Assembly (NCBI GenBank): GCA_913062735.1
Contig: CAJXWI010000049.1
Coordinates: 1 to 10,160 of the forward strand
Origin: an uncultured Arcobacter sp.
GTDB lineage: Bacteria > Campylobacterota > Campylobacteria > Campylobacterales > Arcobacteraceae
DNA: 10,160 nt
Direction of reading: 5' to 3'
This document shows positions 2,902 to 10,160 of the stretch, piece after piece. A program made the position numbers and the translations under genes. How positions within the stretch are numbered: position 1 is the stretch's first letter; every line of letters starts with the position of its first letter. Below the pieces are notes generated by a model. That model ran no database searches. It saw only the letters and a list, made by a program, of their open reading frames with translations, and was not told the DNA's origin.

Positions 2902-2969
2902 CACGTTCTTATTTGCAATTTTTTTGCATTAAAGGAGGTTAAAATCTTGTATTAATAAAGGAGTTTAGG
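2902..2969 (+). promoter_or_regulatory. Intergenic regulatory gap 1 with TGCAA-N5-TTGCA palindrome
   Basis: The gap between the tandem glycosyltransferase and the next GT4 gene holds a perfect inverted repeat, TGCAA (2914-2918), five T, TTGCA (2924-2928), centred 49 bases before the ATG at 2970. The T-run followed by TTGC and ATTAAA resembles the T-rich extended -10 promoters of Campylobacterota, with a weak hexamer. Downstream are two ribosome-site-like sequences, AAAGGAGG (2931-2938) and AAAGGAG (2957-2963); only the second is correctly placed for 2970. There is no GC-rich terminator, so readthrough from the upstream gene is possible. Presence of the palindrome is directly seen; promoter or operator function is inferred from its recurrence in the other gaps. 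Confidence 0.6.
2931..2955 (+). other. Relic-looking ribosome site and dead start codon
   Basis: AAAGGAGGTTAAAATC (2931-2946) is almost the same as the working AAAGGAGTTTAAAATG before the gene at 4126, but the start triplet reads ATC instead of ATG. A TTG-TAT-TAA minimal reading frame (2947-2955) follows at a plausible spacing from the strong AAAGGAGG. Either a former gene start has decayed or this is a two-codon leader. A functional role is uncertain. Confidence 0.35.
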
Positions 2970-4124
2970 ATGCATATTTTGTGGATAAACAATAAAGCTT
3001 CAAGAGGTGGTGGAGCTGAGCAATATATTTATAATACTGTAAAACATTTAAATAAAGTAGGTATAAAATCTTCTCTTCTTTATGATCCAAATATTGAAGT
3101 AGAGAATGAATTCCTTGATGTATTTTTTAGTGCTTTCCCTTTGCTTTGTATCAAAGAACAAATTGAAAATATTAATCCAGATGTTTTATATATACATCAG
3201 TTACACGATTATAAGAGCTATGAAGAAATCATGAAATGCAAGGTTAAAAAGATTAGATTTTATCACGATTACAAATTATTTTGTTTAAGAGAACATAAAT
3301 ATAAAACCTTAAGTAAAAATACCTGTACTTCTAAAATTGGTCTTTCTTGTTACTCATGTTTGGGTTTTATTAATAAAACCCAAAATGGTTTTAAAATAGC
3401 TAGTTTAAAGGAATTAAAAAAACTACAAGAGATAAACAAACAATTAGATTTTTTTGTTGTGGGATCACAATATATGAAAAAACATTTGCAACTTCATGAT
3501 TTTGATGAAGAAAAAATAATTGTTAATCCCTTATATGCAAATAACAATATTGGCTATAAAAACAGTGTAAATTTTTCTAAGAGCAAAACACTCTTATATG
3601 TGGGACAATTAGTCACAGGTAAGGGCATAGATATTTTATTAGATGCAATGAAGAATATTGATGAATCCTATTCTTTAAAAATTATTGGATCTGGGGCTCA
3701 AGAAGAGTTTCTTAAACAATATTCACAAAAATTGAGTTTAGAAAACAGAGTTGAATTCCTTGGAAAGATTGATCATGAAAAATTACCACTTTATTATCAA
3801 AGTGCCTACTGTTTAATTGTGCCAAGTAGAACACCTGAAACATTTAACTTAACAGGCATTGAAGCTTTAAAAGCTGGACTTCCCGTAATTGCTGCTGATG
3901 TTGGAGCAATTAGTGAGTGGTTACAGCATGGTTTTAATGGTTTTCTTTTTAAATCAAATAATTCTAATGATTTGGCACTTAAAATAAATGAGTTGATTTT
4001 AAATCGAAGTTTACATAGAATTTTTTGTTTAAATGCTTTTAAAAGTACAATATTTGACTTTAAAAGCAAAAACCATATAAATAATTTGATTGATATATTT
4101 AATCAAAAAATAAAAGGAGTTTAA
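2970..4124 (+). CDS. GT4 family glycosyltransferase with cysteine insert
   Basis: A 384-residue GT-B enzyme of normal GT4 length that transfers a sugar from a nucleotide donor to a growing glycan at the inner membrane face. The N-terminus MHILWINNKASRGGGAEQY carries the glycine-rich GGAE loop (14-17). H99-D100-Y101 is the usual HD segment. It is followed by C105, C119, C127 and C130, the spaced cysteine cluster seen in a GT4 subgroup after the HD-x-W/Y-x3-C motif; it could bind a metal or be structural. The donor half has LLYVGQLVTGKGIDILLDA (208-226, with K218) and E290-TFNLTGI-E298, the E-x7-E pair. The start has AAAGGAG at 2957-2963, six bases before the ATG. It begins the second block and its stop lies one base before the next gene. 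Linkage and donor sugar are unknown. Confidence 0.9.
   Translation: MHILWINNKASRGGGAEQYIYNTVKHLNKVGIKSSLLYDPNIEVENEFLDVFFSAFPLLCIKEQIENINPDVLYIHQLHDYKSYEEIMKCKVKKIRFYHDYKLFCLREHKYKTLSKNTCTSKIGLSCYSCLGFINKTQNGFKIASLKELKKLQEINKQLDFFVVGSQYMKKHLQLHDFDEEKIIVNPLYANNNIGYKNSVNFSKSKTLLYVGQLVTGKGIDILLDAMKNIDESYSLKIIGSGAQEEFLKQYSQKLSLENRVEFLGKIDHEKLPLYYQSAYCLIVPSRTPETFNLTGIEALKAGLPVIAADVGAISEWLQHGFNGFLFKSNNSNDLALKINELILNRSLHRIFCLNAFKSTIFDFKSKNHINNLIDIFNQKIKGV
3359..3384. repeat. Perfect 26-bp palindrome inside a coding region
   Basis: The arm TTTGGGTTTTATT (3359-3371) is followed directly by its exact reverse complement AATAAAACCCAAA (3372-3384), with no spacer. It encodes LGFINKTQ just after the cysteine cluster of the GT4 enzyme. 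As RNA it could form a stem of about 11 bp with a short AU loop. No U-run follows on either strand, so it does not look like an intrinsic terminator. Function is unknown. Confidence 0.75.
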
Positions 4125-4125
4125 A

Positions 4126-5313
4126 ATGAAATCTTTTGGAAAATTAAGTCTTAGAGGAAGTGTACATTTTGAGGAAAAGATGACAAATCTTTTAAATGAT
4201 ATTTCTATTGATATTGAAAAGTTCATTGATTCAACATTGTACAAAAGTGTAATTTTAATTGGCGGGTATGGAAGAGGTGAAGGAGGAGTAATAAAAGTTC
4301 AAAATGTGGAGTTTCCTCATAACAATCTGGATTTTTTAATTGTTTCTAAACATATCAATAAAAATGAAGAAGAGGAACTTAAAAATAATATTAATGAAAT
4401 CATCACCTCTCATTGTACTTCTTTAAACATAGATTTTGATCTCTCACTTATTAGTGAATTTAAATTAAAAACGTGTGAGCCTTTGGTCATAACCTATGAT
4501 ATGAAATATGGACATAAGGTCATTAATGGAGACTTCTCGTTTTTTACTAGTTTAAGTCGTTTTGATATTGAAAATATACCTGATTGGGACATACGTAATT
4601 TGATGGTAAATAGAGGAACGCTTCTTACAATAAATGATTTAATACTTGCAAAAAAAGACCATACAATGAAAGATTTGAAAACTATAATTAAGCATTGTAT
4701 AAAAGCAATCATTGGTTATGGGGATGCTCTTTTATATTATCATGGCAATTATCATTATTCTTATGTTGAAAAAAAATTACGTATGGCACAAGATAGCAAT
4801 GTTGATGAAAGTTTTAAAAAATTGTACGATGATGCAATGTCTTTCAGATTTGAACCCAATTACGATAAATATTTACAACTTGATTTGATTGATTTTCAAA
4901 ATGATGTAAAAGAAATTCTCAAAAAAATACATTTAAGCTGTGAAGCTATGTCTTTGCAAAATAAAGATATCAAATGGCGTGGATATTTTGAAACTGCCTT
5001 GTCAAATTCTTTATCTCACAATCTAAGTTTTAAGATGGTTTTGAAAAATATACGAAATTTATTTTTACCCAATCACTTAATAAAAGACTTAAGTATCACC
5101 AATAGATTAAGAGTAAAAATGCTTGGGTACAGAGGAGTACTTCCTCTTTTATTTCCATATGTGGCTTTTGGAATGCAGGATAAAAACAGCAATATTCTCA
5201 ATAGTTTTTTTAAAGTTAAAAGCAGTAATACGACAGTTCTAAAACAACAATATCTTATATATTGGGGAAAGTATGTAAATAATAATTTCTCTTTTAAAGA
5301 GTATGGAATATAA
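4126..5313 (+). CDS. Polymerase-beta-type nucleotidyltransferase-like protein of polysaccharide loci
   Basis: A 395-residue protein with no enzyme assignment I can name. Residues 41-74 read as the active-site strand-turn of the polymerase-beta/MNT nucleotidyltransferase fold: VILIGGYGRGEGG (42-54), then NNLDFLIV (66-73), with a third acidic patch NIDFDLSLISE (101-111). In that fold the signature is GG/GS-x-G-x3-(S/N)D-x-D; here the first metal-binding Asp is Asn67, while D69 and D103/D105 are kept. The middle (about 165-290) is helical, with GYGDALLYYHGNYHYSY (197-213), a block I recall from unnamed nucleotidyltransferase-like proteins of glycan clusters. No signal peptide is seen, so it is probably cytosolic. 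It starts one base after the preceding stop, with AAGGAG at 4114-4119 inside the previous gene. It may add a nucleotide- or phosphate-derived group to a sugar, as LicD proteins of the same fold do; this is inference. It could also be a non-catalytic relative. Confidence 0.65.
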   Translation: MKSFGKLSLRGSVHFEEKMTNLLNDISIDIEKFIDSTLYKSVILIGGYGRGEGGVIKVQNVEFPHNNLDFLIVSKHINKNEEEELKNNINEIITSHCTSLNIDFDLSLISEFKLKTCEPLVITYDMKYGHKVINGDFSFFTSLSRFDIENIPDWDIRNLMVNRGTLLTINDLILAKKDHTMKDLKTIIKHCIKAIIGYGDALLYYHGNYHYSYVEKKLRMAQDSNVDESFKKLYDDAMSFRFEPNYDKYLQLDLIDFQNDVKEILKKIHLSCEAMSLQNKDIKWRGYFETALSNSLSHNLSFKMVLKNIRNLFLPNHLIKDLSITNRLRVKMLGYRGVLPLLFPYVAFGMQDKNSNILNSFFKVKSSNTTVLKQQYLIYWGKYVNNNFSFKEYGI

Positions 5314-5316
5314 AGG
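5312..5316 (+). promoter_or_regulatory. Ribosome site that selects the start at 5324
   Basis: AAAGG lies seven bases before the ATG at 5324. The in-frame ATG at 5303, inside the previous gene, has only AAAGAG upstream and would add MEYKGFI in front of the first beta-strand of the fold. The 5324 start is therefore preferred. Confidence 0.6.
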
Positions 5317-5323
5317 TTTTATT

Positions 5324-6148
5324 ATGATTTGTTTAACAGGTGATTTGCATCACAAGAGTTTGAAAACACTTAATCAAAAACATTGTGATATCACAGAAAT
5401 GCAAACAGCACGCGCTTTTTTAAAATGCTTGGAAAAACACAAGGTAAAAATGACCTGTTTTATAACAGGAAAATCTTTTTTACAAGAGTTTGATGATGTG
5501 TCCCAAATTATACATAATCCCTTAATTAAAATTGGAGGACATAATTATGATGCATTTGAAAATGAGTTTCTTCATCGTGTTTGGAATAAATTAACCAAAA
5601 ATTATAATGGCCCCAAATGGGTTCAAAAAAGGGACGTTTTAAAAACCATGGATATCATTTACAAAATGTCTGGAAAAGAGATAAAAGTGTGGAGAAATCA
5701 CATGTATATGCATGGAATAAATACAGAAGAAGTACTTTATAAAGCAGGCATAAAAATATGTTCAGATGGAGTTTTGAAAAACTCTTATGGTTTGCAAAAA
5801 CATACAAGTGGTTTATATAATTTACCTATCAATATTATTCCTGACCATGAACATTTAATTCATGCAGAACGAACACCAAAATGGATTGAAGCATGGAGAA
5901 AAAGATATAAATGGAGTGATGACTTTGGTTCTAAATCTTATTATATCAATGAATGGTGCAAAATGGTTTTAAAACAGTTAAAAGAAAATGAAAAAAAAGG
6001 ACTGCTTTCAAACCTTATTATTCATCCAATTACAATGTATTTGTGTGACAAGTTTGAAAAAGTTGAAGACATACTTGCATATATTTCAAGCTGTGAGAAC
6101 ATTCATATGAGCAAACTACTAAGCGAAAAAGGAGGAAATCATGTTTAA
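5324..6148 (+). CDS. Atypical polysaccharide deacetylase-like (NodB/CE4-type) protein
   Basis: A protein of 274 residues from the preferred start. MICLTGDLHH opens directly with a beta-strand and a motif corresponding to the TFDD of NodB/CE4 deacetylases, here T5-G6-D7-L8-H9-H10. GGHNYDAF (71-78) stands where CE4 enzymes have H-(S/T)-x2-H, with H73 kept but the second His absent. WRNHMYMHG (123-131) fits the R-x-P motif region, and LIIHP (231-235, H234) fits the final L-x-H. One expected Asp and one expected His of the metal triad are thus replaced, while extra histidines (H9, H10, H126, H130, DHEH 174-177) could act as ligands. No signal peptide is seen, so it probably acts on a cytosolic or lipid-linked sugar. 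It follows the nucleotidyltransferase-like gene closely and overlaps the next gene by eight bases. The likely role is removing an acetyl group from an N-acetylated sugar; the substrate is unknown. Confidence 0.7.
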   Translation: MICLTGDLHHKSLKTLNQKHCDITEMQTARAFLKCLEKHKVKMTCFITGKSFLQEFDDVSQIIHNPLIKIGGHNYDAFENEFLHRVWNKLTKNYNGPKWVQKRDVLKTMDIIYKMSGKEIKVWRNHMYMHGINTEEVLYKAGIKICSDGVLKNSYGLQKHTSGLYNLPINIIPDHEHLIHAERTPKWIEAWRKRYKWSDDFGSKSYYINEWCKMVLKQLKENEKKGLLSNLIIHPITMYLCDKFEKVEDILAYISSCENIHMSKLLSEKGGNHV

Positions 6149-7019
6149 GCAGCATGTTTCAATAATAATAAGAACAAAAGATTCATCAAATATAATCGAG
6201 CAAAGCCTAAAAGCACTGTTCTCACAATCCTTTCAGGATTTTGATGTAATTATTGTGGATTCTGGTTCAACAGATAAAACCTTAGAAAAATGTTCTAAAT
6301 ACAAACATACACTCATAAAAATTAAAGCCCATGAATATCATCCAGGAAAAGTATTAAATTATGTTTTGCAAAAGTGTCATAACGATGTTGTTGTTTTTTT
6401 AAATTCAGACTGTGTCATGCTACATACCAATACATTACAGCACTTATTAAATGGTCTTGAGAGTGAAAATATACACGCAGTATTTGCAAGGCAAGTTTCC
6501 AGACCTGAGGCAAAAACATGGGTAAAAAGAGATTATGAAGTTTCTTTCCCTGAAGGTGAAAAACCAGAATGGATGCATTTTTCACTTCCACTTGCTGCAA
6601 TTAAAAAAGAGGTTTGGGAAGAAGTTCCTTTTTATACACAAGCATGGGCTTCTGAGGACAGTAAATGGGCAATTGATATCAAACAAAAAGGTTACCATGT
6701 TGAATATATAAACAATGCTTTAGTCATGCATTCTCACAATTATAGTTTTAAACAATTGTTTAACAGAAGATATGTCGAAGGTGAAGCAGATAGTTATATC
6801 TTTGATTTCAAGTTAAGTATTTTTACAGTGCTTAAAAAGTACGCCTATTCACTTTGGAATGATTTAATTTATCATTTAAAACACCATGATACCTTAGGTT
6901 TCTTCAAAGTAATAATTGTTCGTTTTTTTTACCATTATTCTTATTATTTGGGACATAAAAATGGAATAAAAAGAAAAAAGAACAGCAGTAAAGAAGCTAC
7001 TTTTGGAAATTATCAATAA
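6141..7019 (+). CDS. GT2 family glycosyltransferase (rhamnosyltransferase-like)
   Basis: A 292-residue GT-A glycosyltransferase. HVSIIIRTKDSS (5-16) is the first nucleotide-binding strand and VDSGSTDKT (39-47) the conserved D-x-S-TD turn. FLNSDC (86-91) is the DxD-equivalent metal and sugar-nucleotide site. WASEDSKWA (169-177) carries the ED pair containing the likely catalytic base, and MHSHNYS (196-202) follows. The block AHEYHPGKVLN (63-73) corresponds to the F-x-x-G-x-A-LN region of rhamnosyltransferase-like GT2 members, but the donor cannot be assigned. The C-terminal 60 residues are hydrophobic and basic (IIVRFFYHYSYYLGHKNGIKR), suggesting peripheral membrane contact. A strong AAGGAGG (6129-6135) precedes the ATG, which overlaps the deacetylase-like gene by eight bases. 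It is the last gene of the second block and would add one residue of the repeat unit. Confidence 0.9.
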   Translation: MFKQHVSIIIRTKDSSNIIEQSLKALFSQSFQDFDVIIVDSGSTDKTLEKCSKYKHTLIKIKAHEYHPGKVLNYVLQKCHNDVVVFLNSDCVMLHTNTLQHLLNGLESENIHAVFARQVSRPEAKTWVKRDYEVSFPEGEKPEWMHFSLPLAAIKKEVWEEVPFYTQAWASEDSKWAIDIKQKGYHVEYINNALVMHSHNYSFKQLFNRRYVEGEADSYIFDFKLSIFTVLKKYAYSLWNDLIYHLKHHDTLGFFKVIIVRFFYHYSYYLGHKNGIKRKKNSSKEATFGNYQ

Positions 7020-7027
7020 AAAGAAAA

Positions 7028-7042
7028 TGCAATGTATTTGCA
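7028..7042 (+). promoter_or_regulatory. Gap 2 TGCAA-N5-TTGCA palindrome
   Basis: TGCAA (7028-7032), TGTAT, TTGCA (7038-7042) form a perfect inverted repeat in the 62-base gap, centred 47 bases before the ATG at 7082. The bases after TTGC (ATAAAA) could serve as a weak -10 element. The same element occurs at nearly the same distance in the other two gaps, which supports a shared regulatory site. Function is inferred. Confidence 0.6.
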
Positions 7043-7055
7043 TAAAAAAATCGTA

Positions 7056-7070
7056 GTATTACTTTAATAC
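7056..7070 (+). repeat. Small inverted repeat ahead of the ribosome site
   Basis: GTATTA (7056-7061), CTT, TAATAC (7065-7070) form a perfect 6-bp stem with a 3-base loop ending right before the ribosome site AAGGA (7071-7075). It is AU-rich and weak as RNA. It could be a DNA-binding half of the control region or chance. Confidence 0.35.
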
Positions 7071-7081
7071 AAGGATTTAAG

Positions 7082-8224
7082 ATGTATAAAATATTTGTAA
7101 GCGCCTTGGCTTTTGATCAAGGAAAATCTGGAATTTCAAACTATATTGAAAACTGTGTATATAATTTGGCTTTAAACAATGAAATTTATCTGGCAATTTT
7201 AAAAAGTGATATAAAAAACTATAGAAGAAAACATAAAAATATTCATTTTATTGTATATCCTGATTTTTTAAAATACACACCTTTAAATCTAATCTTTCAT
7301 TTTATTATCTTGCCTTTTTTAATATCAAAAAAATATGATTTTATTTTTTTACCTGCTGCAAATAGAAGACTCATGTTCTATTATCCTTTATATACCATTG
7401 CAACTTTTCATGATTTATCACAGTTTTATGTCAAAGGAAAATATGACTTTTTTAGAATGTTCTATATAAAATATTTTATTCCCCTTTTCTTAAAGGGCAT
7501 TAATAAAATACTAGCTGTTAGCAATAATACAAAAAGCGATATGTTGAAATATTTAAAAATAAACAAGGAAAAAATCATAGTCAATCCAAATGGGTTTGAT
7601 CAATCCTTATATGCTAAGAATACTAAACAAGCAGAAACAACAAAATTTAATCTTTCAAATCAATATATTCTATACATATCTAGAATTGAGCATCCAGGGA
7701 AAAACCATATTAATCTTATAAAAGCTTATGAATCACTGCCTTTAAGTATTAAAAATACCTATGACTTGGTTTTAGTAGGAAGTGATTGTGGAAATGCACA
7801 TTTCATTCATGATTATGCAAATAAATCCAAAGATAAAAAACATATAAAATTCTTGGGTTTTGTAAAAAATGAAGACATGCCTTTTCTTTTTTCACATGCC
7901 AAACTCTTTGTTTTCCCATCTTTATATGAGGGCTTTGGGATTCCTTTACTTGAAGCAATGGCTATGAGCGTCCCTGTAGTATCTGCTTCAAACTCATCCT
8001 TAATCGAAATAGGAGAGAATGTTTGTATGTTCTTTGATGAATACGATGAAATTAACATGAAAAATAAAATAATGGAGGTTCTTGAAAACGAAAAATTACA
8101 AAAAAAAATGAAAAGGTCTGGTTTATTACGAGCAAAAGAATATGATTGGAGATCTCATGCAAAAAAAATTATCAAGCTTTATGAAAAAAATAAATTTTTA
8201 CACTATTCAAAAACGCTTACTTGA
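7082..8224 (+). CDS. GT4 family glycosyltransferase
   Basis: A 380-residue GT-B enzyme of standard GT4 layout. The N-terminal half holds SGISNYI (16-22, acceptor-side loop), a hydrophobic segment (66-82) suited to membrane contact and FHDLSQF (109-115). AVSNNTKSDM (145-154) and VNPNGFD (167-173) mark the link to the donor half. YISRIEHPGKNH (198-209), with R201 and K207 positioned for donor phosphate binding, and E283-GFGIPLL-E291 (the E-x7-E pair) complete the catalytic signature. The typical GT4 end, YDWRSHAKKIIKLYEK, is followed by a short extension created by overlap with the next gene. Ribosome site AAGGA (7071-7075) is modest. It opens the third block behind the gap 2 palindrome. It probably extends the lipid-linked oligosaccharide made by the neighbouring protein; it resembles mannosyl-type GT4 enzymes but the donor sugar is not readable. 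Confidence 0.9.
   Translation: MYKIFVSALAFDQGKSGISNYIENCVYNLALNNEIYLAILKSDIKNYRRKHKNIHFIVYPDFLKYTPLNLIFHFIILPFLISKKYDFIFLPAANRRLMFYYPLYTIATFHDLSQFYVKGKYDFFRMFYIKYFIPLFLKGINKILAVSNNTKSDMLKYLKINKEKIIVNPNGFDQSLYAKNTKQAETTKFNLSNQYILYISRIEHPGKNHINLIKAYESLPLSIKNTYDLVLVGSDCGNAHFIHDYANKSKDKKHIKFLGFVKNEDMPFLFSHAKLFVFPSLYEGFGIPLLEAMAMSVPVVSASNSSLIEIGENVCMFFDEYDEINMKNKIMEVLENEKLQKKMKRSGLLRAKEYDWRSHAKKIIKLYEKNKFLHYSKTLT
8148..8151 (+). promoter_or_regulatory. Ribosome site that selects the start at 8157
   Basis: GGAG lies five bases before the ATG at 8157, inside the end of the GT4 gene. The in-frame ATGs at 8142 and 8181 have poorer sites (AAAAGAA and CAAG). ATG 8181 (MKKINFYTIQ) remains possible because the membrane segment starts just after it. 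Confidence 0.5.
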
Positions 8225-10079
8225 ATATGTTTTAAGTCTAAGTGTTTTGTCTTTTGGATTTATCTTGTTTTTTTATTATGCAATTAAAAACAAAGTACTT
8301 TTAAAAAAAGACATTTTTAGAAGTCTTGTTATAAATAAGCAAAAACTCTATACTTACAATACAGAGCTTCTGTTGTTCAGAAATATTCCTTTGTTTTATT
8401 ACATATTAAAAGGAGATATTGAACTTGTGGGATTAGCTAAGTGTCAAGAGAAACCTTCTTATGAAATAAATGAAAATAAAATAGGACTTTGTAGTCTTTG
8501 GTTTGTACGTAAAAATAATAAAATTCCAAATACCTCAATATACAAATGTAACAACGAATACTTAAAAAATAGAAGTTTTGCTTATGATTTTAAAATACTT
8601 CTTAAATCCTTAATTTCTCTTTTATATTATAAAAAAATAAACAATTACCGTTCAAAAATAAAAATATTCGATATCAAATTTGATAATTTAACAAGAAATG
8701 AAATTTTAAAGAGTGTAAAAAACTCAGTAGCTAACGAAATAAAAAAATCAGTCTATTTTGTTAATGCAGATTGTTTAAACAAAAGTCAAAATAATCAAGA
8801 ATACAAACAAATACTACAAAAAGGTGATTATATATTGCCAGATGGTAGCGGAATTAATATTGCTTGTAATATCTTAGATAATCCTTTAAAAGAGAATTTA
8901 AATGGAACAGATTTATTTCCTTTTATATGTTCCTTAGCTCAAAAACAATCCTACAAAATATATCTTTATGGTGCAAAAGAAGGTATTGCACAAAAAGTAA
9001 AAGACGAGTTAGAAAAGAAGTACGAAAACTTGCAAATTGTAGGAGTACATCATGGTTATGTACAAAACAAAGATATTCCAAAATTAATACAAAACATAAA
9101 CCAATCTAAAGCTGATATCCTTTTTGTAGCTTTAGGTGCGTCTGTCCAAGAACTTTTTATAGAAAAATACAAAAAACAAATTGATGCAAAACTGTTTTTT
9201 GGAGTGGGAGGTTTATTTGATTTTTATTCAAAATCTATAAAAAGAGCCCCTCTTTTTATAAGAGAAATTGGTTTTGAGTGGACGTTTAGAATGTTGCAAG
9301 AACCAAAAAGAATGTGGAAAAGATACATAATAGGAAATCCTGTATTTTTATACAAGGTTTTTCAATATAAAAAGAGTTTAAATAAAAATAAACTAATTGA
9401 TACTTATTTAAGAAACTATGATCAAAACAATTTTCAGTACAGATACAAAAGTATCTTGTGGAAACTTAAATTAAATTGTTCCTCTCTTTTCAAAAGATTC
9501 ATGGATATTTTTATTTCAAGTGTGATGTTATTTTTACTTTTGCCACTGTTTTGTTTACTTGGCCTTATTATAAGAATTGAATCAAAAGGTTCCGTACTTT
9601 TTTCTCAACATAGAGTAGGAAAAAAGGGGAAAATATTTAAAATGTATAAATTTAGATCAATGATAATAGATGCCTCTTTTTTACAAGCAGAACTGGTAGA
9701 AAAGAACGAATCAAAAGATGGTGTAACTTTTAAAATGAAAGAGGACCCAAGAATTACTAAAGTAGGTAAATTTATTAGGAAAACAAGTATAGATGAACTT
9801 CCACAATTATTTAATGTATTAATAGGTGAAATGAGCTTAGTAGGACCTAGACCTCCAATTCAAAGTGAGGTTGAACAATACAGTATAGAAGACAGAAAAC
9901 GTTTAGATATTAAACCAGGAATTACTTGTATTTGGCAAGTAAGTGGGAGAAGTGAAATACCTTTTAAACAGCAGGTTATTATGGACAAAAAATATATAAA
10001 AGAACATGGAGTTTTATACGATATTATTCTTTTACTAAAAACAATTCCTGCTGTCTTATTTTCAAAAGGTTCGTACTAA
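8157..10079 (+). CDS. Fused GT26 (WecG/TagA/CpsF) glycosyltransferase and initiating sugar-phosphate transferase
   Basis: A 640-residue protein in three parts (numbered from 8157). Residues 1 to about 125 have one hydrophobic hairpin (22-43), LFRNIPLFYYILK and GDIELVGLAK (86-95), and GLCSLW (110-115). This looks like a decayed phosphoglycosyltransferase lacking the catalytic core. Residues about 170-390 are WecG/TagA/CpsF: VNADC (202-206), LPDGSG (227-232), NGTD (249-252), HHGY (298-301), LGASVQE (326-332), GVGG (349-352), RAP (363-365) and the appendage GFEWTFRMLQEP (372-383) to KRY (388-390). Residues about 440-640 are a complete bacterial sugar transferase: membrane hairpin (about 450-472), KFRSM (498-502) with likely catalytic D505, DPRITK, DELPQ (546-550), GEMSLVGPRPP (557-567) and KPGITCIWQVSGR (586-598). 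The C-terminal domain should transfer sugar-1-phosphate to undecaprenyl phosphate; the GT26 domain may add the second sugar. It overlaps the GT4 gene by 68 bases. Confidence 0.88.
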   Translation: MQKKLSSFMKKINFYTIQKRLLEYVLSLSVLSFGFILFFYYAIKNKVLLKKDIFRSLVINKQKLYTYNTELLLFRNIPLFYYILKGDIELVGLAKCQEKPSYEINENKIGLCSLWFVRKNNKIPNTSIYKCNNEYLKNRSFAYDFKILLKSLISLLYYKKINNYRSKIKIFDIKFDNLTRNEILKSVKNSVANEIKKSVYFVNADCLNKSQNNQEYKQILQKGDYILPDGSGINIACNILDNPLKENLNGTDLFPFICSLAQKQSYKIYLYGAKEGIAQKVKDELEKKYENLQIVGVHHGYVQNKDIPKLIQNINQSKADILFVALGASVQELFIEKYKKQIDAKLFFGVGGLFDFYSKSIKRAPLFIREIGFEWTFRMLQEPKRMWKRYIIGNPVFLYKVFQYKKSLNKNKLIDTYLRNYDQNNFQYRYKSILWKLKLNCSSLFKRFMDIFISSVMLFLLLPLFCLLGLIIRIESKGSVLFSQHRVGKKGKIFKMYKFRSMIIDASFLQAELVEKNESKDGVTFKMKEDPRITKVGKFIRKTSIDELPQLFNVLIGEMSLVGPRPPIQSEVEQYSIEDRKRLDIKPGITCIWQVSGRSEIPFKQQVIMDKKYIKEHGVLYDIILLLKTIPAVLFSKGSY

Positions 10080-10137
10080 TTTGCAAAGTTCTTGCAATTT
10101 GTTTGCTTATAATTTATAAAAGAATGAAGGAGTTATT
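10080..10137 (+). promoter_or_regulatory. Gap 3 control region: two overlapping palindromes and a TATAAT box
   Basis: A perfect TGCAA-AGTTC-TTGCA (10082-10096) is centred 49 bases before the ATG at 10138. A second, nearly perfect copy, TGCAA-TTTGT-TTGCT (10093-10107), overlaps it, giving three TTGC half-sites spaced 11 bases apart, about one helical turn. TATAAT (10108-10113) follows at once, a good -10 hexamer in a T-rich setting, within the repeat TTATAA-T-TTATAA (10107-10119). GAAGGAG (10126-10132) is the ribosome site. This is the best promoter candidate in the window; the half-sites abut the -10 box, so a bound regulator would touch RNA polymerase. Function is inferred. Confidence 0.6.
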
Positions 10138-10160
10138 ATGTTTAGTATTAACTATGAGAA
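10138..10160 (+). CDS. Start of an unidentified gene (3' end outside window)
   Basis: The ATG is preceded by GAAGGAG five bases upstream and by a promoter-like region. Only MFSINYE is visible, too short to identify. The same spacing between palindrome and start codon as for the genes at 2970 and 7082 suggests it belongs to the same regulated locus. Confidence 0.6.

Follow-up and report, generated by a model that had tools for sequence, protein, structure and literature searches.

The DNA analysed here is a 10,160-nucleotide contig of an uncultured Arcobacter sp. (CAJXWI010000049.1, hereafter the window), which is part of a surface-polysaccharide gene cluster of a marine Arcobacteraceae bacterium. 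It raises the question of why the few sizeable gaps between its genes all carry the same short sequence, and which protein would read it. An earlier note on this DNA had described the sequence as a palindrome, TGCAA-N5-TTGCA, and a pattern search confirmed exact copies at 2914-2928, 7028-7042 and 10082-10096, the only ones that the window contains (3 exact copies among 11 matches at up to two mismatches). As the note had stated, the copies are centred 49, 47 and 49 bases before the next ATG codons (2970, 7082 and 10138), and the gaps that hold them (68, 62 and 58 bases) are the only ones longer than 10 bases between the main open reading frames (ORFs). When the gap bases were shuffled 200,000 times (mononucleotide shuffles), a copy arose in any gap at a frequency of 0.0001 and in all three gaps never. 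The sites exist exactly where they had been reported, and chance does not account for them.

What had been overlooked is that the register of the sites also fits a direct repeat with an 11-bp period, and that a -10-like hexamer begins exactly 11 bp past the second unit of each site, at 2940, 7054 and 10108, all on the forward strand. Box 1 (2913-2928) consists of TTGCA at 2913-2917 and TTGCA at 2924-2928, and is followed after 11 bp by TAAAAT (2940-2945). Box 2 (7027-7042) consists of ATGCA at 7027-7031 and TTGCA at 7038-7042, with TAGTAT (7054-7059) 11 bp beyond. Box 3 (10081-10107) has TTGCA at 10081-10085, TTGCA at 10092-10096 and, in the same 11-bp period, a weaker third unit, TTGCT (10103-10107); the hexamer TATAAT (10108-10113) lies 11 bp after its second unit. 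The most fitting reading thus appears to be a direct repeat of 11-bp units in tandem, YTGCA-N6-YTGCA, with a TATAAT-like -10 element exactly 11 bp further on. We consider it very probable that these boxes are bound by a response regulator of the PhoB/OmpR family whose gene lies in the last operon of the cluster and which would act as an autoregulated activator of the polysaccharide genes.

Genome-wide tests were made on relatives of the window's organism, whose genomes and loci are given G and L numbers here. The closest loci, L001-L003, come from metagenome-assembled genomes titled Campylobacteraceae/Arcobacteraceae and Arcobacter sp. All three sites lie at the same gaps in L001 and L003, though much of the flanking gap sequence differs; L002, a partial contig, retains site 3, while site 1 is found on a second contig of that genome (G002) and site 2 falls beyond the contig end. 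Box 1 is kept in G001, G002, G003 and G004, as well as in G037, where its second unit is CTGCA, and box 2 is kept in G001, G003, G004 and G037. The third unit of box 3 reads TTGTT in G001-G004, and G037 and G087 have none. Extended loci, including those of G004 and G037 (83% and 56% identity over the WecG fusion), carry two more boxes upstream of the window, one before the first gene of the cluster and one before a manC-like gene. Every gap longer than 50 bases from the manC-like gene to the end of the regulator operon carries a box in G001, G003 and G004, whereas the preceding gap of 39-41 bases lacks one, gap lengths in relatives depending on mechanically called start codons.

Outside the cluster, a box precedes the gene for an outer-membrane efflux protein (OEP) in G003 and G002; among six draft or complete genomes, a 98% ortholog of this gene occurs in these two only, other matches being at most 35% identical. 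Examination of 19 out-of-cluster loci with exact direct repeats placed 16 inside an ORF, the remainder being the two OEP boxes and one TTGCAACTTTGTTGCA site. The suggestion of a locus-specific operator has therefore stood, in that orthologous loci retain the sites and 16 of the 19 out-of-cluster repeats fall within ORFs.

A different kind of operator had been proposed in the earlier note, namely a palindrome for a LysR-type regulator, and we weighed a dyad of this or another dyad-binding protein against the direct repeat. The TGCA core is self-complementary, and the two forms were scored on the two bases flanking each core. All three window copies are perfect palindromes, as is the first-gene box of G037 and G087, and in the window alone the two forms tie at boxes 1 and 3 while box 2 favours the inverted one, a result that does not favour tandem repeats. 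Across relatives, however, the direct form fitted better at 5 of 16 distinct window-type sites, tied at 10 and was worse at 1. At 12 held-out sites (of 14; a duplicated copy in L368 and an antisense match in L374 were left out) it was better at 7, tied at 5 and worse at 0. Over all 28 distinct sites, these scores come to 12 better, 15 tied and a single site at which the inverted form won.

Several orthologous boxes keep the direct repeat and lose the palindrome, among them the first-gene boxes of G001, G003 and G004, all five manC-like boxes and both OEP boxes. The CTGCA-type boxes of distant relatives are direct only, as in CTGCAATTTAT-CTGCAATCTTC from distant regulator genomes, a direct repeat without a dyad, so that dyad symmetry is not conserved in any of these groups. 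Three units with an 11-bp period occur at one G241 site, and this site and the weaker third unit of box 3 also speak against a simple dyad. No LysR-type domain was found in 28 proteins scanned with Pfam (8 of the window, 18 of the L003/L130 cluster and 2 just beyond, at least one 106-aa cluster ORF being left out). A palindromic operator is decidedly unlikely on these grounds, and tandem direct repeats with a period of 10-11 bp are what would be expected of a PhoB/OmpR-type operator. Exact palindromes numbered 6, 3 and 12 on the forward strands of G001, G002 and G003, respectively, and were scattered at first look; among the extra copies inspected, some were coding-like by eye and others belonged to a longer palindrome, TGCAACTWAGTTGCA, several of the G003 extras being left uninspected.

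We tabulated 30 sites in six ortholog groups (first-gene, manC-like, site 1, site 2, site 3 and OEP), whose consensus is YTGCA-N6-YTGCA-N11-hexamer, some sites having ATGCA or CTGCA as their first unit. Outside the manC-like group, TANNNT stands at N11 in 24 of 25 sites, the sole exception being CATTAT at site 2 of G001. The same spacing recurs in the held-out loci described below, and 22-24 bases separate the hexamer from the start codon in the window. With the manC-like group excepted, the boxes would therefore occupy the -35 position at a fixed distance from a predicted -10 element, as is characteristic of PhoB/OmpR-type operators.

This architecture bears on two promoter readings that the earlier note had raised. 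One was a conserved extended -10 context; a sigma70-type -10 element does belong to the architecture, but alone it fails to explain the repeat one helical turn upstream. The other was an RpoN (sigma54) promoter with -24 and -12 elements, which is most improbable. TTGCA does fall in the -12 register with G residues 11 bp apart, but the -24 GG, whose absence the note had itself seen, occurs in 0 of 42 tabulated sites (partly by construction, as a TGCA pattern picked them), and the three window sites read TTG, ATG and TTG at that position. A TATAAT-like hexamer at a constant 11 bp downstream is likewise at odds with sigma54, and the 28 scanned proteins include no sigma54 activator domain. An RNA hairpin was set aside as a reading, the predicted start of transcription being downstream of the box.

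The candidate regulator was seen in relatives. The window ends inside the gene behind box 3 (10138-10160), which is a STAS-domain gene in L003, and in the window's own genome the regulator gene would lie beyond it. The L003 operon behind site 3 encodes, besides the STAS protein, a hexapeptide transferase, a histidine kinase-receiver protein, a receiver-HATPase protein, a receiver-winged-helix protein and a receiver-kinase protein. The receiver-winged-helix protein (216 aa; L003:15693-16340) matches Response_reg (PF00072) and Trans_reg_C (PF00486), both above cut-off, and is the only one of the 28 scanned proteins with a DNA-binding domain. It was found at 70% identity or more in six of 150 relatives (G001-G004, G037 and G087), followed by G059 at 57%, and the helix TISSH(I/V)RDIRK is common to all seven.

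In the mechanism that we propose, two subunits of this regulator would bind head to tail on the tandem YTGCA units one helical turn apart, presumably under the control of phosphorylation. Bound in this way, the protein would stand in the -35 position and bring in sigma70 RNA polymerase at the -10 hexamer 11 bp downstream, which predicts activation rather than repression. The operons of the cluster would be switched on together, including that of the regulator itself via box 3, resulting in positive feedback.

A promoter model built from sequence only (14 sites, 39 columns) was run on 299 relatives; at E<=0.002 it matched 46 times, in 26 genomes. The top 20 matches (at least 24 bits) were confined to the six genomes with a regulator at least 70% identical, although it tells against this result that most of them had served for training or are orthologous to sites that had. 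For the OEP boxes, which had been held out, the scores were 22.9 and 22.8 bits, and a few matches in other genomes scored alike: G024 (23.9) and G068 (22.8), both inside an ORF, G019 (23.7 and 23.4), G241 (22.9) and G026 (22.7). Of 19 other model matches, 13 were assigned to ORFs by a script, which took a neighbouring match for two (L327 and L328). A pattern search that included the -10 hexamer found matches in 56 of 150 genomes and by itself proved too loose, a better separation being obtained with the 39-column model. Searching with the DNA-binding domain detected the regulator in 12 of 299 genomes at 54% identity or more, and the 20 other genomes with model matches include three (G241, G188 and G253) of the six further regulator genomes.

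As a held-out set we used 173 kb of regulator neighbourhoods from G059, G244, G253, G241, G200, G188, G058 and G127. Boxes were found near the regulator in all eight of these non-training genomes. Half-site pairs peaked at a gap of 6, with 31 pairs, whereas no other gap between 0 and 16 gave more than 11; 60 Markov shuffles gave a mean of 1.6 pairs at this gap and 8 at the most, and 75 kb around paralogs (21 loci) gave 3. These 21 loci replaced an earlier control set, dropped as biased because the pattern itself had served to retrieve 30 of its 51 loci. The full arrangement of gap 6 and spacing 11 matched 14 times in the held-out set (once antisense) versus once in the 75-kb control. Spacing 13 was also high in the held-out loci (11 matches), 8 of the 11 being spacing-11 sites read two bases on.

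The position weight matrix gave 19 matches above 15 in the 173 kb versus 6 in 178 kb of control sequence (38 loci), the latter falling to 4 once a true ortholog site (L161, G058) and a duplicate (L142/L361) are set aside, and 20 column-permuted models gave 0-2. Among the 19 held-out matches, the one in L364 falls within an ORF, two in L374 were flagged as coding via a start judged to be overcalled, and in L194 one match of the two was inspected.

The regulators of all eight non-training genomes carry TISSH(I/L)RDI(R/H)K, and the recognition helix TISSH(I/V/L)RDI(R/H)K appears to track the box. An alternative is that another PhoB/OmpR-type regulator, not linked to the cluster, binds the box and that the linked one is a mere passenger. 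Many of these genomes carry several OmpR-type paralogs, and in the draft genome G019 a divergent pair of boxes stands before polysaccharide genes where no regulator ortholog was detected. The co-occurrence of boxes with a TISSH-type regulator in 8 of 8 non-training genomes argues against such a passenger, as do two genomes whose regulators are 45-46% identical and have another helix: G060 has a weak box above the regulator operon (CTGCA-N6-CTGCA-N11-TAAGAT in L195, regulator 46% identical, counted as a control), and G041 has none above threshold. We regard an unlinked regulator as unlikely. The G019 boxes (L334, G019:C190, about 3526-3610), each followed by N11-TAATAT, lie between rmlA/rmlC-like genes and a glycosyltransferase-like/flippase-like pair, all named by eye.

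Besides G019, further observations weigh against the proposed operator and activator. In the manC-like group, TANNNT stands at N11 in 0 of 5 genomes, a TATAAR-like stretch lying about 12 bp further on in most. Not every gap has a box, since gaps of 37-41 bases without one occur in G001, G003, G004 and G037. A 73-base gap after the regulator in G037 also lacks a box.

An operator of this kind is already known. The pho box of Escherichia coli PhoB consists of tandem 11-bp direct repeats in place of the -35 element, close above the -10, with a TGTCA-like half-site, and serves the phosphate regulon; the boxes described here share the repeats at -35 and differ in half-site and regulon. PceP, an OmpR-family response regulator encoded in the organohalide respiration region that it controls in Sulfurospirillum, appears by analogy to be the nearest described case. 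In its description, CTATA is repeated at one promoter with 6-nt gaps (an 11-bp period) overlapping the -35 box, sites precede several transcription units including its own, and electrophoretic mobility shift assays showed that both repeats are needed (PMC7755780). The 5-mers with 6-nt gaps over the -35 element, the several units and the own operon are shared with our boxes, whereas the PceP half-site differs, with CTATW-N17-CTATW as the proposed pair, the system serves tetrachloroethene respiration, and the site at its own promoter lies 85 bp above the start (PMC7755780).

HP1043 of Helicobacter pylori is an OmpR/PhoB activator that recognizes two hexamers spaced by 5 bp and overlapping promoter sequences, and thus shares family, 11-bp period and promoter overlap with the case described here (PMC8345958). 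It differs in its half-site, TTTAAG, and in being an orphan, phosphorylation-independent and essential; it is also modelled head to head (PMC8345958), which counts against our reading, and head-to-tail binding here is therefore a proposal. The syp locus of Vibrio fischeri is likewise a polysaccharide locus, in which the response regulator SypG drives transcription and to which SypA, a STAS protein, and SypE, a multi-domain response regulator, belong; SypG is reportedly sigma54-dependent and acts with an enhancer (PMC12369376), in contrast to a PhoB-like regulator with a sigma70-type box. The regulator family, the box and the matrix regulon described below seem to be new, no paper on such a regulator having been found in the limited literature collection searched, where nothing on direct repeats of DccR in Campylobacter jejuni was found either.

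Pfam matches on the window proteins comprise glycosyltransferases, a polysaccharide deacetylase and a WecG-sugar transferase fusion. Box 1 is followed by a GT4-type glycosyltransferase gene (2970-4124), and box 2 by another (7082-8224) and by the WecG-type glycosyltransferase fused to a bacterial sugar transferase (8142-10079, start codon uncertain). A 797-aa protein (508-2901) apparently consists of two tandem glycosyltransferases, Pfam matching its second half only, and a 395-aa protein (4126-5313) has no Pfam match and contains the motif GGYGRGEGG. In relatives, the first half of the cluster includes a SpoIIE phosphatase with a receiver and an RsbW-like HATPase. An RsbU-like phosphatase, an RsbW-like kinase and a STAS protein were seen within the polysaccharide cluster (L003 12000-17485, L130 1423-3096), which suggests a partner-switch input to the phosphorelay.

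In distant relatives, the genes behind the boxes are partly the same. In G059, ATGCA-N6-CTGCA-N11-TAAAAT lies in the gap immediately downstream of the regulator gene and precedes a 39% homolog of the first gene after site 1. Boxes in G244 precede a 38% homolog of the 797-aa protein and, divergently, a 54% homolog of the first gene of the cluster; another stands before a short gene after the WecG fusion, the STAS position, for which no BLAST match was found at 1e-4. A 34% homolog of the 395-aa protein lies directly behind a box in G253 (L371). In G244 and G253 the boxes are weaker and their units depart from the pattern; in G241, G200, G188, G058 and G127, 8 of 11 typed sites start with CTGCA.

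Boxes or the regulator also adjoin other genes in distant genomes, namely those for long secreted-looking proteins with a VSAQG-type leader, a GGDEF protein and C39-like peptidases. In G241 a Pel operon (PelD, PelG and a DUF3492 glycosyltransferase) lies by a box or the regulator, and the G127 locus includes a PelD-like gene (28%). The secreted-looking proteins of L366, L368, L369, L372 and L373 are homologous, reach 1280 aa and share an N-terminal 'LSD.DL..VSAQG'-like motif; one VSAQG-type protein was scanned and had no Pfam match. A C39-like peptidase (Pfam) is encoded in the same locus in L366 and L369, and a 31% homolog in L368.

Two other repeats were seen in relatives. One is a longer palindrome, TTGCAACTWAGTTGCA, present repeatedly in G001-G004, in G037 and in further relatives (e.g. 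L086, L088 and L094), with a similar second copy nearby in L086 and L094; it looks like the operator of another regulator. In G040, G142 and G144, TTGCACA-N4-TTGCACA forms an 11-bp tandem repeat with TANNNT at N11; it is perhaps a sister box of a related regulator.

The gene content suggests that the boxes mark a matrix regulon. In a broader proposal, whose chances we judge to be even, a biofilm-matrix regulon would be common to several related lineages, the window being one edge of it. A PhoB-like family with the helix TISSH(I/V/L)RDI(R/H)K would act through a strict YTGCA-N6-YTGCA-N11-TATAAT code and activate each lineage's own matrix genes, whether these make up a WecG/sugar-transferase polysaccharide cluster or a Pel operon, or encode a diguanylate cyclase or, near C39-like peptidases, long secreted proteins with the '..VSAQG' leader; in the Arcobacteraceae cluster the regulator adjoins RsbU-, RsbW- and STAS-like partner-switch genes. 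If this is true, a promoter code readable from sequence alone would predict the regulon and pair with the recognition helix of its regulator, and genes for surface polysaccharide, Pel, cyclic-di-GMP and secreted proteins would be under one switch in Arcobacter-like bacteria and their relatives.

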